From assembly GCA_004322275.1 (NCBI GenBank), contig SCTA01000034.1:1-64000 (forward strand): a stretch of DNA of 64,000 nucleotides. The letters run 5' to 3'. Shown piece by piece: positions 18,723 through 42,411 of this stretch. The notes beneath the pieces were generated by a model that had not been told where the DNA came from, searched no databases, and was given only the letters and a program-made list of their open reading frames with translations. Position 1 is the stretch's first letter; every line of letters starts with the position of its first letter. This stretch comes from a bacterium. GTDB taxonomy: Bacteria > Desulfobacterota > Deferrisomatia > Deferrisomatales > BM512. The translations under genes and the position numbers were made by a program.

Positions 18723-19110
18723 GAAAGGGACCGCACAGGCGCGGGCAACCGCTCCGGAAATCTAGATCCGGGGAGGAAAGTCCGGGCTCCGCAGGGCAGG
18801 ATGCTGGATAACGTCCAGTCGGGGCGACCCGAAGGAAAGTGCCACAGAAAATATACCGCCCCTAAGGAGAAATCCGAAGGGGTAAGGGTGAAATGGCGAG
18901 GTAAGAGCTCACCGCGGACCGGGCGACCGGGACGGCAGGGCAAACCCCATCCGGAGCAAGGCCAAATAGAGGGACGTACGAGGGCTGCCCGCCCCATGTC
19001 CCCGGGTAGGCTGCTTGAGGTCCGGAGCAATCCGGATCCCAGAGGAATGGTTGCCGCCCCCTTCGGGGGGAGACAGAACCCGGCTTACAGCGCCCGTGCG
19101 CGTCTCTTTC
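18723..19110 (+). ncRNA. rnpB: RNase P RNA, bacterial class A
   Basis: Catalytic RNA of RNase P, which matures tRNA 5' ends. Universally conserved blocks are in order: GAGGAAAGTCCGGGCTCC near 18772, GCCACAGAAAATATACCGCC near 18840, GGTGAAATGGCGAGGTAAGA near 18887, AGAGGAATGGTTGCC near 19041 and ACAGAACCCGGCTTA near 19073. The ends pair as helix P1: GAAAGGGACCGCACAGGCGC at 18723 against GCGCCCGTGCGCGTCTCTTTC-like sequence ending at 19110. The following T-rich run may help termination. Confidence 0.97.
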
Positions 19111-26061: not shown

Positions 26062-26208
26062 CTAGTATCCGAAGCGCTCCGAGCGAAGCGGGACTAAAGG
26101 CTTTACGCCTATGTCCGCCAGCCGATGGGTCGTGAGGGAAACCCCGCGGCCTCCCGCGTTTTGGAAAGGAGTGACGGTAGCCTTTCGGCGAGACCATGTC
26201 TCGTTGCC
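26062..26208 (+). promoter_or_regulatory. Moco/Tuco-type riboswitch upstream of tupA
   Basis: The leader has the conserved stretches of the molybdenum/tungsten cofactor RNA motif: CTCCGAGCGAAGC near 26078, GATGGGTCGTGAGGGAAACC near 26124, CGCGGCCTCCCGCG near 26145 and GGAAAGGAGTGACGGTAGCC near 26163, followed by TTTCGGCGAGACC. A strong terminator starts directly after the motif, and the next gene is a tungstate-binding protein. I infer an off-switch in which cofactor binding favours termination. Recognition is from remembered consensus, not a covariance search. Confidence 0.8.
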
Positions 26209-32913: not shown

Positions 32914-34512
32914 TTAGTTGGAGACCGGGGTCTCGGAAACCTTGTCGGTGACGACGCCGGAGTAACCGTTGACGCCCATCTCGGGAATGTCGAGACCTTC
33001 GATCTCCTCTTCCTTCGAGGTGCGAAGGCCGATGGTCTTGTCGATCAGCTTGAAGACGATGAAGCCGATGACGCCGACGTAGATTATGTTAGCTCCCACG
33101 CCGATGACCTGGGCGAAGAACTGGCTTGCGTCGCCGTAGAAGAGGCCCTTGACGGGACCGGCTACGCCGTTCCAGCCGTCGCCGTAGGTGCCGTCGGCGA
33201 AGAGGCCGAGGGCGATGCAGCCCCACGCGCCGTTTACGCCGTGAACCGCTACGGCGCCTACCGGGTCGTCAACCTTGAGCTTCTGGTCGATGAAGAAGAC
33301 CGCTTCGACGACCAGCACGCCCGCGACGAGGCCGATTATGCAGGCGCTTATCGAATTTACGAAGCCGCAGGGGGCGGTTATCGCCACGAGTCCGGCCAGA
33401 AGGCCGTTGCACATCATCGAGGGATCCGGCTTCTTGGTCTTGAAAAGCCACATGTAGAGGATTGCGGCGATTGCGCCGGTGGCGGAGGCGAGCATGGTGT
33501 TGACGGCGACCACCGCGATGCGAAGGTCGGTGCCCGCAAGGGTCGAGCCGGGGTTGAAGCCGAACCAGCCGAAGGCCAGGATAAAGGTGCCGATAATCGC
33601 CATGGGGATGTTGTGGCCGGGTATGGCGTTGGCGCTCCCGTCCTTGTTGTACTTGCCGAGGCGGGGACCGAGAATCCAGGCTCCGACGAGGGCCAATACG
33701 CCGCCGGTCATGTGGACTACCGAGGAGCCGGCGAAATCGACGTGGCCGTGGCCGATGCCGAAGTTCTTGCCGAGGGTGGCCAGCCAGCCGCCGCCCCAGA
33801 CCCAGTTGCCGTAGATCGGGTAGATGATGGTGCCTACGAAGATGCCGTAGACCATGAAGGAAGAGAACTTCCAGCGCTCGGCCATCGAGCCGGTCGGGAT
33901 GGTCGCCGTGGTGTCCATGAAGACCATCTGGAAGAGGAACATGGCGAAGATGGCTACGTCGTAAGTATGTCCCGTCAGGCAGAACCCGGTCATTCCGAAG
34001 AGGCCGAAGTCCTTGCCGAAGAGGTTGATGGTGAATTCGCTGTTGAGCCCGTCGAAGCCGCCCAGAGTAGCCAGGGAGCCGACGCCGCCGAACATCAGGG
34101 CGAAACCGCAGAGGTAAAAGCCGATCATGCCGAGGGGGTAGATCATGAAGTTCATCGACATGGTGTGCGCGACGTTCTTGGCGCGGGTGAAGCCGCCCTC
34201 GACCATCGCGAAACCGGCCTGCATGAACATGACGAGGAAGCCGGTGATGAGAACCCACATCATGTTGATGGCTATCTTGTTGTGGCCGACCGCGTTTGCG
34301 ATGTCCAGAGTGGAGGTCTCTCCGGTCTTTACGTCGTAGGCCATGCCGGTGGAACCGCCGTTCGGGTCCGAGGTGCGGGCCGAAGGCGCTTCTATGGTTA
34401 TCGTGGATGAGGGGGCCGAGGCCATCTCCTCGGCCAGGGCGACGCCTGTGAACAGGAAGATTCCCGTCAACAGTGCCAGTATTATTTGGTTTACCAATTT
34501 TAAGCGGCGCAT
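32914..34512 (-). CDS. amt: Ammonium transporter
   Basis: A 532-residue Amt/Rh channel for ammonium uptake in the inner membrane. Eleven or so transmembrane segments are evident. Conserved channel parts include FVMFMQAGFAMVEGGFTRAKN, the DFAGSSVVHMTGG histidine-containing pore segment and HGVNGAWG near the C-terminus. A signal-peptide-like start precedes about 60 extra residues (TITIEAPSARTSDPNGG...) before the first channel helix, longer than E. coli AmtB. It is divergent from a P-II gene 383 bp away, the classic amt-glnK partnership, and a sigma-54-like promoter lies upstream. Confidence 0.95.
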   Translation of the reverse strand: MRRLKLVNQIILALLTGIFLFTGVALAEEMASAPSSTITIEAPSARTSDPNGGSTGMAYDVKTGETSTLDIANAVGHNKIAINMMWVLITGFLVMFMQAGFAMVEGGFTRAKNVAHTMSMNFMIYPLGMIGFYLCGFALMFGGVGSLATLGGFDGLNSEFTINLFGKDFGLFGMTGFCLTGHTYDVAIFAMFLFQMVFMDTTATIPTGSMAERWKFSSFMVYGIFVGTIIYPIYGNWVWGGGWLATLGKNFGIGHGHVDFAGSSVVHMTGGVLALVGAWILGPRLGKYNKDGSANAIPGHNIPMAIIGTFILAFGWFGFNPGSTLAGTDLRIAVVAVNTMLASATGAIAAILYMWLFKTKKPDPSMMCNGLLAGLVAITAPCGFVNSISACIIGLVAGVLVVEAVFFIDQKLKVDDPVGAVAVHGVNGAWGCIALGLFADGTYGDGWNGVAGPVKGLFYGDASQFFAQVIGVGANIIYVGVIGFIVFKLIDKTIGLRTSKEEEIEGLDIPEMGVNGYSGVVTDKVSETPVSN

Positions 34513-34620: not shown

Positions 34621-34637
34621 TTCAAGAGTCGTGCCAA
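34621..34637 (-). promoter_or_regulatory. Sigma-54-like promoter for amt
   Basis: On the minus strand TTGGCAC-N5-TTGAA reads from 34637 to 34621, matching the -24/-12 consensus TGGCAC-N5-TTGCA except for one base, with the required 10-nt spacing between GG and the GA/GC step. The predicted start lies about 100 nt ahead of the amt ATG. Confidence 0.6.
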
Positions 34638-34831: not shown

Positions 34832-35234
<403 letters not shown>

Positions 35235-36023: not shown

Positions 36024-36203
36024 TAAACCAACCCTTTTTGTGAAACGGCGACGGTGTACGGTAAAAGCAGCCGGAATGTTGCCCTTCACATTAAGTGAAA
36101 ACAAAAACTTTAAGGGTTGCCAAAACAATTTTGAATGATAAATTAGTAGCGAAGGGAAACCTTCGATTATTTTTATTTAATTTTGATTTCGAGGGTTGTT
36201 GCG

Positions 36204-38204
36204 GTGACCGATTCCGGCGCGAAGGAGAGGTTTGTCTCTTCTTCCGGTGAGGCAGAGGGCAGGAGTGAAAATCCTGAAGACCTCAAAGGGGTTCCTTTAC
36301 TTGTAAAACTTCTGACAAGCTCCTCCCTCCCTTTTGGAATATGTTATCCCGACGGCAGACTCTGCGAATTCAACGACGCCGCCCTGAACCTCCTCGGCTA
36401 CACCCGCGAAGAACTCTCCTCCCTCAACTGGATACGCGACCTTACTCCTCCGGAATGGCTCGCCCAGAGCCAGAAACACCTTCAGGAACTAGAAAAAACC
36501 GGAGTTCCGGTTCGCTACGAGAAAGAATACATAAAAAAAGGCGGCAAGAGGGTTCCGGTAGAGCTCCTTGTGCACCAAAAGCGCGACGCGGAGGGGAAAA
36601 CTCTCTACTATTATACCTTCATTCTGGACATCAGCAGGCAGAAAGAGGCCCAAAGGAAGCTGCAGGACGCCAACGAGCGCTTCCGCCAACTCCTCCTCGC
36701 CTCCCCCTCGGTCCTTTACACCATGCGGTCGGACGGCGACTTCGGTCTTACTTTCGTAAGTGAGAACGTTGCCGGCATGCTCGGCTACCACGCCAGAAAA
36801 TACACCTCCGAGCCGGGTTTCTGGATTGAATCGGTTCACCCGGAGGATCTGCCGGAGGTCCTGGGGGGGCTTACGGAACTAAAAAAGAGCAGTCACATCG
36901 TCCTGGAGTACCGCTTGAGGCGAAGGGACGGCCGGTACATCTGGGTGCGCGACGAGAGGGAGCTCCTTCCTGGCGCACAGGGGGATTCCCCCTACGTCGT
37001 CGGCTCGCTCTCCGACGTGACCAAAGAGAAGATGGAGGAGGCCAGACGCTTCGAGGCCGAACGCAATCTGTGGCAGTACCAGAAGAACGAAAGCCTCGGG
37101 ATAATGGCGGGCGGAATCGCCCACGATTTCAACAATATCCTGACCGGCATACTCGGCAACGCGGAACTGGCCCTCGGCCTCCTCGATCCCGGGTCCGGCG
37201 TCAGGGAGAACATAGAGGCGGTCATAGCGTCGAGCAGGCGGGCCGCCGAACTGACGGACAAGATGCTCGCCTATTCCGGCAGGGGGAGTTTTCACCTCGC
37301 GCCGCTCTCCCTCGCCAGAGTGGTGCGCGAGTCCAGCGACGTGCTGCGCTCTTTCGCGCCTCTGAAGTGCTCTATCCGCTACCTGCTCGACGAAGACGCG
37401 CCGCGCATAAACGCCGACCCGGACAAGCTCCGTCAGCTTCTGACCAATCTCGTGTCCAATTCCGCCGAAGCTCTCGAAAGCGTGGGGGGTACGATTACCG
37501 TTGCCGTGCGCGCTCTCCATCTCACGGGAGAGACCCAGGGCGACACTTTTATGACCGATGGTCTTCCCGAGGGAGACTACGTGGCGCTTGAGGTCTCCGA
37601 CACCGGTTGCGGCATAGATAAAAAAATAGTCGCCAACATCTTCGACCCCTTCTTTACCACGAAGTTCGCGGGAAGAGGACTCGGCCTCTCGGCGGTTATC
37701 GGAATAGCAAAAGCCCACGGAGCGGCGGTGAGGGTGAAAAGCGAGACGGGAAAAGGCGCAACCTTCGAGGTGCTTTTTCCCGCGCTCCCACGGCTTGTTC
37801 AGGATCTTCCCGGGACGCCCGGCCCGGAATCGAACTGGAAGGGAAGCGGAGCGATTCTCGTTATCGACGACGAGGAGATAGTTCGCACCATCCTGGAGCG
37901 GATGCTCACAACCGCCGGCTTCGAGGTCGTGACGGCGAAAAACGGCCTTGAGGGGCTGGAAAAGTTTAAGGCTCGCCAAGGGGATTTCCGCGTCGTCCTG
38001 CTGGATATGGGGATGCCGGAGATGAACGGCGCGGAAGTCTTCAAGAGACTTCGCGCCCTAAAGCCTGACGTAAAAGTTATCCTCGTGACCGGCCTTCGCA
38101 TCGACGACGTGGCCAGGGAATTCCGGGAGGGAGGTCTCGTCGGCATGGTTCAAAAACCCTTCCACTACAAGGATCTGATAAACCAGATACGCTGCTGTCT
38201 CTGA
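36204..38204 (+). CDS. PAS-PAS hybrid histidine kinase with receiver domain
   Basis: A signalling protein of about 666 residues, lacking obvious membrane helices. Two PAS domains (about 40-160 and 165-285) precede an HWE/HisKA-like kinase: H-box GGIAHDFNNILTG (His near 307), N-box NLVSNSAEAL, G1 VSDTGCGID and G2 GRGLGLSAV. A receiver domain closes the protein (IDDEEIVRTILERM... VVLLDMGMP, phospho-Asp near 600). GTG at 36204 is preferred for its GAGG at 9-nt spacing; TTG at 36183 would add 7 residues. It lies upstream of hcp. Since no DNA-binding regulator follows, any link to hcp control is only positional. Confidence 0.9.
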   Translation: MTDSGAKERFVSSSGEAEGRSENPEDLKGVPLLVKLLTSSSLPFGICYPDGRLCEFNDAALNLLGYTREELSSLNWIRDLTPPEWLAQSQKHLQELEKTGVPVRYEKEYIKKGGKRVPVELLVHQKRDAEGKTLYYYTFILDISRQKEAQRKLQDANERFRQLLLASPSVLYTMRSDGDFGLTFVSENVAGMLGYHARKYTSEPGFWIESVHPEDLPEVLGGLTELKKSSHIVLEYRLRRRDGRYIWVRDERELLPGAQGDSPYVVGSLSDVTKEKMEEARRFEAERNLWQYQKNESLGIMAGGIAHDFNNILTGILGNAELALGLLDPGSGVRENIEAVIASSRRAAELTDKMLAYSGRGSFHLAPLSLARVVRESSDVLRSFAPLKCSIRYLLDEDAPRINADPDKLRQLLTNLVSNSAEALESVGGTITVAVRALHLTGETQGDTFMTDGLPEGDYVALEVSDTGCGIDKKIVANIFDPFFTTKFAGRGLGLSAVIGIAKAHGAAVRVKSETGKGATFEVLFPALPRLVQDLPGTPGPESNWKGSGAILVIDDEEIVRTILERMLTTAGFEVVTAKNGLEGLEKFKARQGDFRVVLLDMGMPEMNGAEVFKRLRALKPDVKVILVTGLRIDDVAREFREGGLVGMVQKPFHYKDLINQIRCCL

Positions 38205-38316
38205 AAATCCCTCCGGTAGTACTGCTCCTCCTGCTGTTTTTATTCGCCCGCTGGACTTCGGCGGTTCCCGTGTAAAACTTGAATCCGAAAGGTTTGAACA
38301 GGAGGCGGACACGCCT

Positions 38317-38332
38317 GTTACCGTTCGGAAAC
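38317..38332. promoter_or_regulatory. Palindromic site 1 upstream of hcp
   Basis: GTTACC-GTTC-GGAAAC, a 16-bp inverted repeat with one mismatch. It has the same arm and spacer lengths as two further sites nearer hcp and is centred about 212 bp before the predicted start. Confidence 0.45.
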
Positions 38333-38400
38333 GGTTTGCGTCCTTAAAAACGGGTTAAATATTTTTCTGCCTCCGGGAATGATTCAAACCAGCCTTTTTG

Positions 38401-38416
38401 GTTACCTGCGGGTAAC
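38401..38416. promoter_or_regulatory. Palindromic site 2 upstream of hcp
   Basis: GTTACC-TGCG-GGTAAC, a perfect inverted repeat (arms GTTACC/GGTAAC), centred about 128 bp before the predicted sigma-54 start, at a distance typical for an enhancer-binding activator. Confidence 0.6.
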
Positions 38417-38431
38417 GCCGCAATTTATAGC

Positions 38432-38447
38432 GTTGCCATGCGGTAAC
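38432..38447. promoter_or_regulatory. Palindromic site 3 upstream of hcp
   Basis: GTTGCC-ATGC-GGTAAC, one mismatch from site 2 and exactly 31 bp (three helical turns) downstream of it, so the two lie on the same DNA face. Confidence 0.6.
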
Positions 38448-38510
38448 GTTTCGACGCCCTAAAAACAGTCTAAACCCGTAAGGTATTGCAATTACAGGTA
38501 AATATATATT

Positions 38511-38526
38511 TGGCACGGCAAGTGCA
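38511..38526 (+). promoter_or_regulatory. Sigma-54 promoter for hcp
   Basis: TGGCAC (38511-38516), five bases, then GTGCA (38522-38526), preceded by a T. Only one base differs from TGGCAC-N5-TTGCA, with exact 10-nt spacing between GG and GC. The transcript should begin near 38537, giving a leader of about 80 nt. The 411-bp gap between the kinase and hcp holds only this regulatory region. Confidence 0.8.
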
Positions 38527-38615
38527 ATTTAGATGTTTTAGAGACATCGGCAATTCATAAACTTTCGGCGCTGCGAGTCATGCGCCGGGGAAAACTTCAA
38601 ACGAGGAGAAAAGAG

Positions 38616-40250
38616 ATGTTCTGCCAGCAATGTGAACAGACGATAGGCGGCAAGGCCTGCGAAAAGAAAGTCGGCGCCTGCGGCAAAACCCACGAGGTAA
38701 GCGCCCTTCAGGATCTCTTAACCTACTGCGTACGCGGTCTCTCCCATTTTGCGGTCGAGGCGCGAAAGATCGGGATCAGCGACCCCTCCGTCGGAAGATT
38801 TATCTCCGAGGCGCTTTTTTCGACCCTGACCAACGTCGATTTCGACCCGAAACGCTTCGAGCAGCTTATCAATCAGGCTGTCGGCCTCCGCGAGTCGCTG
38901 AAGGCGAAGATCGCGCAGAAAGGCGGAAAGACCTCCTTCGCCGACCCCGCAGCCGCCTTCATGCCCGCAGGCACTCTGGAAGGGCTTATAAAGCAGGGCG
39001 AGGACGCCGGGCTCCCCATCGACTGGGATGCCGGGGCCGATATCGCCTCCCTCCAGGAGATTACCCTTCTCGGCCTTCGCGGAGTCGCGGCCTACGCCGA
39101 CCACGCCGCCATACTCGGTCAGGTTGACGACGCGGTTTACGCGGCGATGGAAGATAAGCTCTCGAAGATTACCGACCGCTCGCTGGGCCTCACCGAGTGG
39201 ATAGGGATAACCCTCGACACCGGCAAGGTAAACCTCCGGGCCATGGAGCTACTCGACGCCGCCAACACCGGCACCTACGGCCACCCGGTGCCCACCCCCG
39301 TCCCCCTCGGCCACAAGGCGGGCAAGGCGATACTCATCTCCGGCCACGACCTCAAGGACCTCGAAGAATTGCTCAAGCAGACCGAAGGGAAGGGGATAAA
39401 CATCTACACCCACGGCGAGATGCTGCCCACCCACGGCTACCCCGGCCTCAAGAAGTACCCCCACCTCTACGGTAACTACGGCACCGCGTGGCAGAACCAG
39501 AGAAAGGAATTCGCCCAGTTTCCCGGCGCGATTCTCATGACCACCAACTGCCTCATGGAGCCGGTGGACGCTTACAAGGCCAACATCTTCACCACCGGGC
39601 TGGTCGGCTGGCCCGGCGTGACCCACGTTAAGAACGGGGATTTCGGCCTTGTCGTCAAGAAGGCCCTCGAAATGGACGGCTTCGCCTCCGACCTCGACAA
39701 GGATTCCGTGCTTGTCGGTTTCGCGAGAAACACCGTCCTCGGCGTAGCGGACAAGGTGATAGAAGGCGTCAAATCCGGCGCGATAAAGCACTTCTTCCTC
39801 GTCGGCGGGTGCGACGGCGCTAAGCCCGGCCGCAACTACTACACCGAATTCGTCGAAAAGGCCCCCAAAGACACGATAATCCTTACGCTCGCCTGCGGAA
39901 AGTACCGCTTCTTCGACAAGAAGATAGGCGACATCGGCGGCATACCGCGCCTTCTTGACGTAGGCCAGTGCAACGACGCCTACTCCGCCGTGCAGATAGC
40001 CACCGCCCTCGCCGGGGCCTTCAACTGCGGCGTAAACGACCTCCCCCTCTCGATAATCTGCAGCTGGTACGAGCAGAAGGCGGTCGCCATCCTTCTTACC
40101 CTGCTCAGCCTCGGCATAAAGGGAATCCGCCTCGGGCCCTCCATGCCCGCTTTCATCTCGCCGAACGTCCTCGACGTACTCGTCCAGAACTTCGACATAA
40201 AGCCGATAGGCAACGTAGACGAAGATATAAAAGCCTGTCTGGCGAAGTAA
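38616..40250 (+). CDS. hcp: Hybrid cluster protein (hydroxylamine reductase)
   Basis: A 544-residue cytoplasmic metalloprotein with a [4Fe-4S] (or [2Fe-2S]) cluster and the hybrid Fe-S-O cluster. It reduces hydroxylamine in vitro and, in several bacteria, acts on nitric oxide under nitrosative stress. The ATG at 38616 is chosen because it begins MFCQQCEQT and has AGGAG 8 nt upstream. N-terminal cysteines are Cys3, 6, 15 and 22. Hybrid-cluster regions with TTNCLMEP, GGCDGAKPGRNYY and IICSWYEQKA follow. Upstream palindromes plus a sigma-54 promoter imply activation by an enhancer-binding protein. A terminator follows. Confidence 0.96.
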   Translation: MFCQQCEQTIGGKACEKKVGACGKTHEVSALQDLLTYCVRGLSHFAVEARKIGISDPSVGRFISEALFSTLTNVDFDPKRFEQLINQAVGLRESLKAKIAQKGGKTSFADPAAAFMPAGTLEGLIKQGEDAGLPIDWDAGADIASLQEITLLGLRGVAAYADHAAILGQVDDAVYAAMEDKLSKITDRSLGLTEWIGITLDTGKVNLRAMELLDAANTGTYGHPVPTPVPLGHKAGKAILISGHDLKDLEELLKQTEGKGINIYTHGEMLPTHGYPGLKKYPHLYGNYGTAWQNQRKEFAQFPGAILMTTNCLMEPVDAYKANIFTTGLVGWPGVTHVKNGDFGLVVKKALEMDGFASDLDKDSVLVGFARNTVLGVADKVIEGVKSGAIKHFFLVGGCDGAKPGRNYYTEFVEKAPKDTIILTLACGKYRFFDKKIGDIGGIPRLLDVGQCNDAYSAVQIATALAGAFNCGVNDLPLSIICSWYEQKAVAILLTLLSLGIKGIRLGPSMPAFISPNVLDVLVQNFDIKPIGNVDEDIKACLAK

Positions 40251-40268: not shown

Positions 40269-40301
40269 AAAAAAGCCCCGTGGAGACGCGGGGCTTTTTG
40301 C
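40269..40301 (+). terminator. Terminator after hcp
   Basis: AAAAAGCCCCG and CGGGGCTTTTT form a stem with a loop of about 8 nt, ending in five Ts, 16 bp or so after the hcp stop. It separates hcp from etfB, so the two are probably distinct units. Confidence 0.85.
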
Positions 40302-40408
40302 ATTTGCCGCCTCGAAGGTCAATTCTTGCGGGCCGTGTCATAATTAAGTATCTTACAGCACGTTGTTTCAGCGTTTCTTTTCCGGTCAATCTCTTCCGGG
40401 AGCGAGCT

Positions 40409-41227
40409 TTGCGCATAGTAGTCTGCATTAAACAGGTGCCTTCGAGCACGAAGGTGAACATAGACCCCGAGACGAAGACCCTGATGCGCGGGGGGGTGGG
40501 CGCGATGCTGAACCCCTTCGACGAATTCGCCATAGAGGAGGGAGTGCGCCTCGCCGAGAAGCACGGCGGGGAGTGCATAGCCCTCACGATGGGGCCGCCG
40601 CAGGCCACCGACATACTGCGGACGGCGCTGGAGCAGGGGTGCGACAAGGGGTATCTCGCTTCCGACCGCGCCTTCGCGGGTTCCGATACCCTCGCCACCT
40701 CGCGCACCCTCGCGAGCGCGATACGCGCGATAGAAAAACGCGATGGGCCGGTTGACCTCGTCATCTGCGGCCAGCAGGCCATCGACGGCGACACCGGGCA
40801 GGTGGGGCCGAGCCTCGCCGTCCGCATGAACCTCCCGCCGCTGTCCTACGTCTCGAAGGTCCGCGAAGTGGACCTGGAGAAGCGGGAAATCACAGTCGAA
40901 CGGATGCTTGAGCGCGGCACGCAGGTGGTCCGTAGCGAGCTTCCGGCGGTTCTTACGGTGGTAAAGGCGATAAACCTCCCGCGCTTTCCCTCCCTCCTCG
41001 CCAAACGCAAGGCCAGGACAAGACCGGTTGAAAAGCTGACCCTGGCCGATCTGGATATCACCGAGGCGGATACCGGCCTCAAGGGCTCGCCCACGCGGGT
41101 GGTAAAGATATTTCCCCCGGAGGAGCGCAAGATAGCCTCGGTGGTCTACACCGGCGACCCCAAGGAATCCGCCGGAAAGCTCGCCCTTGACCTTGCGAAG
41201 CTGCTCGGCCACGGGGGCGCGTCATGA
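40409..41227 (+). CDS. etfB: Electron transfer flavoprotein beta subunit
   Basis: A 272-residue EtfB, the AMP/FAD-binding small subunit of electron-transfer flavoprotein. The TTG at 40409 follows GGGAG with 6-nt spacing and gives RIVVCIKQVPSS, the family opening. Signatures NPFDEFAIEEGVRLAEKHGG, CGQQAIDGDTGQVGP and the LPAVLTVVKAINLPRFPSL region are all present. etfA overlaps by 4 bp. The partner has two Fe-S clusters, so the pair probably links flavin chemistry to ferredoxin rather than acting as a simple housekeeping Etf. Confidence 0.95.
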   Translation: MRIVVCIKQVPSSTKVNIDPETKTLMRGGVGAMLNPFDEFAIEEGVRLAEKHGGECIALTMGPPQATDILRTALEQGCDKGYLASDRAFAGSDTLATSRTLASAIRAIEKRDGPVDLVICGQQAIDGDTGQVGPSLAVRMNLPPLSYVSKVREVDLEKREITVERMLERGTQVVRSELPAVLTVVKAINLPRFPSLLAKRKARTRPVEKLTLADLDITEADTGLKGSPTRVVKIFPPEERKIASVVYTGDPKESAGKLALDLAKLLGHGGAS

Positions 41228-42411
41228 CCGCCCTCGCCATAGACCGCGACCTTTGCACCCTCTGCGGAACCTGCGTCGGCGTTTGCCCGGTGGACGCCCT
41301 CGCGATAAAGGGCGACAAGCTCGAAGTCAATGAGAACTGCACCCTTTGCGGGACCTGCGTGGGAGTCTGCCCGGTCAACGCCCTCTCGATACCGGAAGAG
41401 GCCGCGAAGGAAAGCGCTTTTTCCGGGCGCGGGATACTCGTCTACGCCGAACGCGGGGACGGGGGAATCACAAGCGCGACCTTCGAGCTTATCGGTAAGG
41501 CGGCGGAGCTTTCCGCCACCCTCGGAACCCCCGTTTCGGCGCTTCTTCTGGGCCACGGCGCGGCTCACCTTGCAAGCGAGCTGTTCGCCTACGGGGCCGA
41601 CAGGGTTTACCTCTCGGAGGACCCGCAGTTCGCCGATTACCGTACCGAGGTATGCGGCGAGACCGCGCTGGCCATCGTCGAAAAATTCAAGCCCGAGGCG
41701 GTGCTCCTCAGCGCCACCGTAGAGGGGCGCGATCTCGGCAGCTTTCTGGCTAGCAGGCTGAATACCGGCCTAACCGCCGACTGCACCGAGCTCGCCATCG
41801 ACCCGGAGACGAGAAACCTCCTCCAGACCCGCCCCGCCTTCGGCGGAAACATAATGGCGACGATACTTTGCGCCAAAAACCGCCCGCAGATGGCCACGGT
41901 GAGGCCGAAGGTTTTCGCGATGCCCGAGAGGCGGGAGCGGACCGGCGAAATCGTAACCTGCGAACCCGTCCGGATACCCCATCCGCGCACAGAAGTGCTG
42001 GAGTACATACCCTTCGAGGGCGGCGTGGATATCTCCGAGGCGGAGGTAATCGTTTCGGGAGGGCAGGGGCTTCGCAAGGCGGAGAACTTCGCGCTGCTAA
42101 GGGAGCTCGCGGAGGTTCTCGGCGGGACCATCGGCGCTTCGCGTTCGGCGGTGGACGCGGGCTGGGTAGCGCACGAGCGGCAGGTGGGACAGACAGGAAA
42201 GACCGTCCGCCCGGTAATCTACGTCGCTTGCGGAATCTCCGGGGCGATACAGCACCTCGCCGGGATGAACCAGTCGGACATCATAATAGCCATAAACACC
42301 GACCCCGAGGCCCCGATAATGAAGGTGGCCAATTACGCGGTCGTGGGCGATCTGTCGATTGTCGTCCCGGAGTTGACGCGGCAACTCAAAGAACTTCTCA
42401 AAGGCCGTTGA
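41224..42411 (+). CDS. etfA: Electron transfer flavoprotein alpha subunit with N-terminal ferredoxin domain
   Basis: A 395-residue EtfA. Residues 1-60 form an extra 2x[4Fe-4S] ferredoxin module: [16 protein letters not shown] and [16 protein letters not shown], an almost identical tandem repeat also visible at DNA level (41258-41393). The remainder is EtfA-like, with [11 protein letters not shown]-binding [41 protein letters not shown] and a C-terminal [16 protein letters not shown]. Such ferredoxin-fused EtfA occurs in anaerobes, with dehydrogenases or possible electron bifurcation. The dehydrogenase partner is not in the window. Overlaps etfB by ATGA. Confidence 0.95.

Follow-up and report, generated by a model that had tools for sequence, protein, structure and literature searches.

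A PAS-AAA+-Fis sigma-54 activator with GTTACC-N4-GGTAAC operators as the probable regulator of the hybrid cluster protein gene hcp

The hybrid cluster protein gene hcp in the analysed stretch of 64,000 nucleotides (the window) is very probably driven by sigma-54 through a PAS-AAA+-Fis activator that acts on GTTACC-N4-GGTAAC operators, represses its own gene, responds to a nitrogen-oxide signal and replaces a regulator of the HcpR kind. The original prediction had been a sigma-54 promoter with a possibly unusual enhancer-binding protein; the analysis supports this and presents a candidate that is apparently undescribed, as no description of the operator or its activator was found in the open-access literature searched. 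In the proposed mechanism, sigma-54 RNA polymerase would transcribe hcp from the -24/-12 element at 38511-38526, and a one-component PAS-AAA+-Fis protein would bind the operators 79, 110 and 194 bp before the -24 element and remodel the closed promoter complex. The same protein would limit its own synthesis by binding a single operator behind the -10 box of its sigma-70-like promoter. Its PAS domain would sense a nitrogen oxide, most likely NO or nitrite. We infer binding, activation, autorepression and signal from the sequence comparisons.

The hcp control region

The window belongs to a draft genome (G000) of 2,882,786 bases in 45 contigs. Three palindromes and a -24/-12 element had been claimed upstream of hcp; all were confirmed within the 411-bp gap (38205-38615) between a hybrid kinase gene and hcp, one palindrome being perfect and two having one mismatch.

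38317-38332, plus strand: operator 3, GTTACCGTTCGGAAAC, GTTACC-N4-GGAAAC, 1 mismatch, 194 bp before the -24 element, 13.1 bits, rank 3 in the window, the weakest of the three
38401-38416, plus strand: operator 2, GTTACCTGCGGGTAAC, perfect GTTACC-N4-GGTAAC, 0 mismatches, 110 bp before the -24 element, 18.5 bits, rank 1
38432-38447, plus strand: operator 1, GTTGCCATGCGGTAAC, GTTGCC-N4-GGTAAC, 1 mismatch, 79 bp before the -24 element, 18.4 bits, rank 2
38511-38526, plus strand: putative sigma-54 -24/-12 element, TGGCACGGCAAGTGCA, 1 mismatch to TGGCACG-N4-TTGCW
38616-40250, plus strand: hcp, the target gene, encoding the hybrid cluster protein (544 aa); 554 bits with Pfam Prismane and 807 bits with NCBIfam hydroxylamine reductase, for which the cut-off is 367

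Two further details of the prediction were likewise correct: the starts of operators 2 and 1 lie exactly 31 bp apart, and the -24/-12 element deviates from the consensus in a single base. Its GG and GC are correctly spaced for a sigma-54 promoter, which would place the transcript start near 38537. The start codon of hcp is at 38616 (Met-Phe-Cys), not at 38580 as in the longer open reading frame. Sigma-70-like and terminator-like sites were sought in 38150-38650 and none was found.

Three palindromes with at most one mismatch in the gap compare with a mean of 0.0024 in 5000 dinucleotide shuffles; at least one was present in 12 of the 5000 shuffled gaps, two in none. Genome-wide, G000 has six such palindromes, three of them before hcp; two others (C7:50679 and C29:42765) lie inside open reading frames and were set aside. 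At the looser threshold of three mismatches the whole window yielded 16 matches versus 14.7 expected, which is chance level. A position weight matrix derived from 40 distinct palindrome sites, all outside G000 (training scores from 9.3, median 23.6 bits), placed the hcp operators at ranks one to three of the 64-kb window, followed by 7.0 bits at rank four; operator 3 falls towards the bottom of this training range. By itself, the -24/-12 pattern is weaker evidence, because it is no commoner than expected (six matches with up to two mismatches in the window, 6.2 expected) or than its reversed control (TGGCACR-N5-TGCW and the reversed pattern each occur six times in G000). Support for the putative element at 38511-38526 rests on position and conservation.

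Several neighbours of hcp deserve mention. The gene directly upstream (36183-38204) encodes a PAS-PAS-histidine kinase-receiver hybrid. It was rejected as the sensor: no tie to the operators was found, and in the related genomes G002 and G004 it is not located beside hcp. An electron transfer flavoprotein pair follows hcp (40280-42411), its alpha subunit carrying two 4Fe-4S stretches; it may be an electron route. Another one-mismatch -24/-12 match, TGGCACGACTCTTGAA, was observed at 34621-34636 (minus strand), some 110 bp upstream of an amtB-like gene (32914-34512, minus strand) with a P-II-like gene (34896-35234) nearby, both named from sequence. The window also contains a molybdenum/tungsten cofactor riboswitch (26065-26187, 57.3 bits) and a bacterial RNase P RNA (18733-19103, 309.5 bits).

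The candidate activator

A genome search for the same palindrome, proposed as a check of the original prediction, revealed a fourth site of G000 with one mismatch or better at C15:14493-14508, 18 bp before the ATG of a sigma-54 activator gene.

G000:C15:13107-14474, minus strand: PAS-AAA+-Fis sigma-54 activator, 455 aa, assigned by Pfam domains, with the palindrome before its own start

The AAA+ sigma-54 activation domain (PF00158) scored 230 bits and the Fis-type DNA-binding domain (PF02954) 42.9 bits. The sensor region matched PAS_4 and PAS_10 and had no GAF match; a receiver (Response_reg) match was not found in the protein. The loop motif reads GSFTGA, versus GAFTGA in the other five proteins aligned. 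In the draft assembly the activator gene and hcp lie on separate contigs.

The promoter of the activator gene has the form TTGACC-N17-TATCTT, and the operator follows 2 bp after the end of the -10 box. Identical hexamers with identical spacing were observed for the ortholog in G002 (locus L112), where the -10 box ends 3 bp before the operator. Other ortholog loci had a weaker sigma-70 match at variable position, and in most the operator was located just before the ribosome site. The close succession of -10 box and operator in G000 and L112 suggests autorepression, that is, a repression of the activator gene by its own product through the single operator. A structure model of the PAS domain (pLDDT 86) came closest to those of SMU_1151c and PF0695, with PAS domains of the heme and flavin types ranking lower; the model thus does not point to one ligand.

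The next gene after the activator in G000 codes for a protein of 342 aa, presumably UroD-like, a name given from its look; no Pfam, NCBIfam or PDB-sequence match was obtained. In G002 and G004 the gene is situated between activator and hcp. Coordinates of the gene across the three genomes are L036:4041-5069 (minus strand), L074:3833-4861 and L075:4279-5307. Among 297 genomes of the phylum, 181 encoded relatives of the protein at E <= 1e-30.

Conservation of activator, operators and promoter

G002 and G004, members of the same family but another genus, possess an orthologous activator with 60% identity. In both, a single strand carries the activator gene, then the operators and the -24/-12 element, then the UroD-like gene and finally hcp; the palindromes mark the promoter of this UroD-like/hcp operon and lie some 1.2 kb upstream of hcp itself. 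Palindromes directly before hcp occur at one of 27 hcp loci, that of the window. Conservation upstream of hcp in relatives, which had been suggested as a test, was thus observed at the operon promoter of G002 and G004, not directly before hcp.

Of the 39 genomes in the relatives set, 28 gave an Hcp match, in some cases weak, and four encoded the activator at E <= 1e-120. Among 395 phylum genomes six encoded the activator at E <= 1e-115, namely G000, G002, G004 and three of family f28. A profile search of genome contigs with the PAS alignment retrieved 63 loci; L111-L132, 22 in all, reached 7e-27 or better, and the match after them stood at 1e-8. These include the loci of G004 (L111), G002 (L112) and G206, Trichlorobacter thiogenes (L124); with G000 and G106 they form a set of 24 loci, 21 with a readable 3' side. 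Sites with up to two mismatches were present within about 100 bp before the activator at 20 of the 24 loci (0.09 expected) and just after its stop codon at 16 of the 21 (0.16 expected). Most orthologous loci have -24/-12 elements downstream of the operators, and the branch of the tree with all 21 full-length activators has a support of 0.969. The comparison establishes, at the level of sequence, that regulator, operator and promoter are linked and that this linkage is conserved.

The window, L111 and L112 all have a distance of 79 bp from the start of the proximal operator to the -24 element; in the latter two the proximal operator of the hcp operon is degenerate (7.4 and 7.7 bits). Tandem operators are spaced by 31 bp in the window, 33 bp in L111 and L112, 31 bp in L116, 32 bp in L118 and 30 bp in L124. 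Distances from the proximal operator to the -24 element followed a period of 10.5-11 bp (R 0.78-0.81, n = 16), and those of all sites gave R 0.76 at 10.5 bp (n = 29); both values are descriptive only, given the relatedness of the sequences and a period that had not been set in advance.

Genes downstream of the activator

Downstream genes were readable in 20 of the 24 loci; L114, L115, L123 and L126 end too soon. Nitrogen-oxide genes or the hcp partner followed in 18 of these 20: the UroD-like gene with hcp in two loci and the UroD-like gene alone in G000, nap in six (L110, L119, L122, L124, L129, L132), a cytochrome c gene with narG in four (L120, L121, L128, L130), nrfHA-like genes in two (L125, L127), and in L116, L118 and L131 genes for multiheme proteins akin to nitrite reductase or to hydroxylamine/hydrazine enzymes, none of which reached its curated cut-off. 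From this regulon content we infer a response to nitrogen oxides. NapA, NrfA and NarG were not detected over the cut-off in G000, G002 and G004; therefore, the activator would not serve nitrate respiration by those enzymes there, and NO or nitrite is favoured over nitrate as the signal.

Exceptions were present as well. The two remaining loci, L113 and L117, have downstream genes unrelated to nitrogen oxides; in L117 (9350-16375) activator and operator precede succinyl-CoA synthetase/citrate lyase-like and succinate dehydrogenase-like genes. G035 (L108) has neither an operator nor nap or hcp in the vicinity of its activator gene. L113 and L114 have a three-mismatch site only before the activator gene and none after it, and the downstream site of L122 has three mismatches. 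At narG of G106 no operator was found. The activator frame of L121 is apparently broken by a frameshift before narG, either an assembly error or decay. L128 lacks the downstream operator and carries an exact HcpR box, TTGACTCAAGTCAA, 79 bp after the activator stop codon and before the cytochrome c-narG operon, possibly a swap of the GTTACC operator for the HcpR box in the direction opposite to the hcp case. Thirteen further one-mismatch sites in G002, G004, G106 and G206 were away from the two positions at the activator, and all were set aside; the eight examined as loci are in or overlap an open reading frame, and L188 alone had a one-mismatch -24/-12 match, about 540 bp off on the other strand. 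Against the proposed control of hcp speak the location of activator and gene on different contigs, direct operators at a single one of 27 hcp loci, the weak operator 3, the GSFTGA loop and the exceptions G035, L113, L114, L117 and L128.

Alternative regulators of hcp

Most relatives would lead one to expect HcpR, a CRP/FNR-type regulator, at hcp. In excerpts of PMC1274295, HcpR is predicted to control hcp and, in Geobacter and Desulfuromonas, also nrf and nar. A TTGA-N6-TCAA box of the HcpR type is located 98 to 116 bp upstream of the start of hcp in seven order-level relatives (G005-G011) and in G003 of the same family, the eight nearest hcp-bearing relatives outside G000, G002 and G004, and all eight encode 2 to 8 HTH_Crp_2 proteins each. 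Such proteins number zero in G000, G001, G002 and G004, G001 also having no Hcp match, and in the hcp gap of the window the best TTGAC-N4-GTCAA match has three mismatches and TGTGA-N6-TCACA does not occur within three. Control of hcp by HcpR is thus extremely improbable in G000, and the claim that the palindrome is distinct from an HcpR/FNR-type box was borne out. We read the distribution as a takeover of hcp by the activator family in the G000 lineage, where it would have displaced an HcpR-like regulator of the CRP/FNR type. G106 and G206 have the activator together with two HTH_Crp_2 proteins; thus, both kinds of regulator can coexist. A chance or non-regulatory origin of the palindromes would fit the window count at three mismatches and the commonness of the -24/-12 pattern by itself; given the shuffles, the conservation, the position and the independent matrix, its probability is practically negligible.

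Other sigma-54 activators have to be weighed against the PAS-AAA+-Fis protein. NorR, named among the checks of the original prediction, has GAF as its sensor domain. The candidate has PAS instead and reached 357.7 bits with the NorR equivalog, cut-off 476, over residues 131-449 only; the three GAF-type activators of G000 that were scored lie over the NifA cut-off and likewise below that of NorR. An attribution to NorR is not supported. An exact inverted repeat GATGT-N7-ACATC, the NorR2 consensus of Vibrionales according to excerpts of PMC1274295, where NorR2 is predicted to activate hcp, is present at 38532-38548, the only match in the window with up to one mismatch. One such match versus 0.53 expected is within chance, and the repeat is located after the -12 element at the inferred transcript start, not upstream of the promoter, where NorR sites are expected; the GT-N7-AC core has one match in the gap, and the conserved operators are of another kind. 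Activation by a NorR is thus very improbable. The link to nitric oxide or nitrogen status held in so far as a candidate sigma-54 activator with a putative nitrogen-oxide regulon emerged. The part on nitrogen status is not supported: NtrC sites read TGCACC-N5-GGTGCA, and the best match in the hcp gap has four mismatches. G000 encodes about 16 strong Sigma54_activat proteins, and a hybrid kinase gene stands directly before hcp, so that a response regulator or NifA-type protein might use the palindromes. However, a palindrome closer than three mismatches was found at none of the genes of 14 other activators of G000 in the same positions (of 15, L014 was left out, as no proper frame was recovered), and the operator travels with the PAS-AAA+-Fis family across about 20 genomes; use by another activator is quite improbable.

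Comparison with known systems

Control of hcp by the PAS-AAA+-Fis activator would present a clear candidate case in which one family of regulators has supplanted another for a shared target. In a wider reading, this family would be a main nitrogen-oxide switch of Desulfuromonadia and relatives, driving nap, nar or nrf in nitrate ammonifiers, and would have been kept for hcp, after loss of the CRP/FNR-type regulator, in a sister lineage in which no NapA, NrfA or NarG was detected, with NO or nitrite, not nitrate, sensed by PAS; here the chances appear evenly balanced. No account of the switch-on of nitrate ammonification in Geobacteraceae-type bacteria was found in the open-access literature searched, and a regulator with a recognisable operator makes this control directly testable, also in cultivable carriers of the activator such as Trichlorobacter thiogenes, Oryzomonas japonica and Geomesophilobacter sediminis. 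For Hcp-Hcr of such bacteria a conversion of NO to N2O has been proposed, according to an excerpt of PMC11633192.

The HcpR regulon of delta-proteobacteria, as far as described in excerpts of PMC1274295 and PMC5701242, resembles the present one in its target genes hcp, nrf and nar. HcpR differs in belonging to the CRP/FNR family and in using a TTGAC-N4-GTCAA box without sigma-54; neither the box nor such a regulator was found in G000. Among known sigma-54 regulators of nitrite genes, the closest within the phylum is, by excerpts of PMC5701242 and PMC4641369, NrfR (DVU0621) of the NrfS-NrfR system of Desulfovibrio, tied to nitrite/nitrate reduction. NrfR is a two-component response regulator, whereas the present activator has a PAS domain and no receiver; the comparison of the two covers their domains. 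The NorR2-hcp-hcr arrangement of Vibrionales, in the excerpts of PMC1274295, shares three features: a gene for a sigma-54 activator ahead of hcp, palindromes in tandem upstream of a sigma-54 promoter, and one lone site in front of the activator gene, interpreted there as negative autoregulation. It differs from the present system in the sensor, here PAS, and in the operator, GATGT-N7-ACATC versus GTTACC-N4-GGTAAC; the regulon here includes nap, nar and nrf, and activator and hcp are apart in G000. By its predicted mode of action the activator works like NorR2, yet domain, score and operator all set it apart from NorR.
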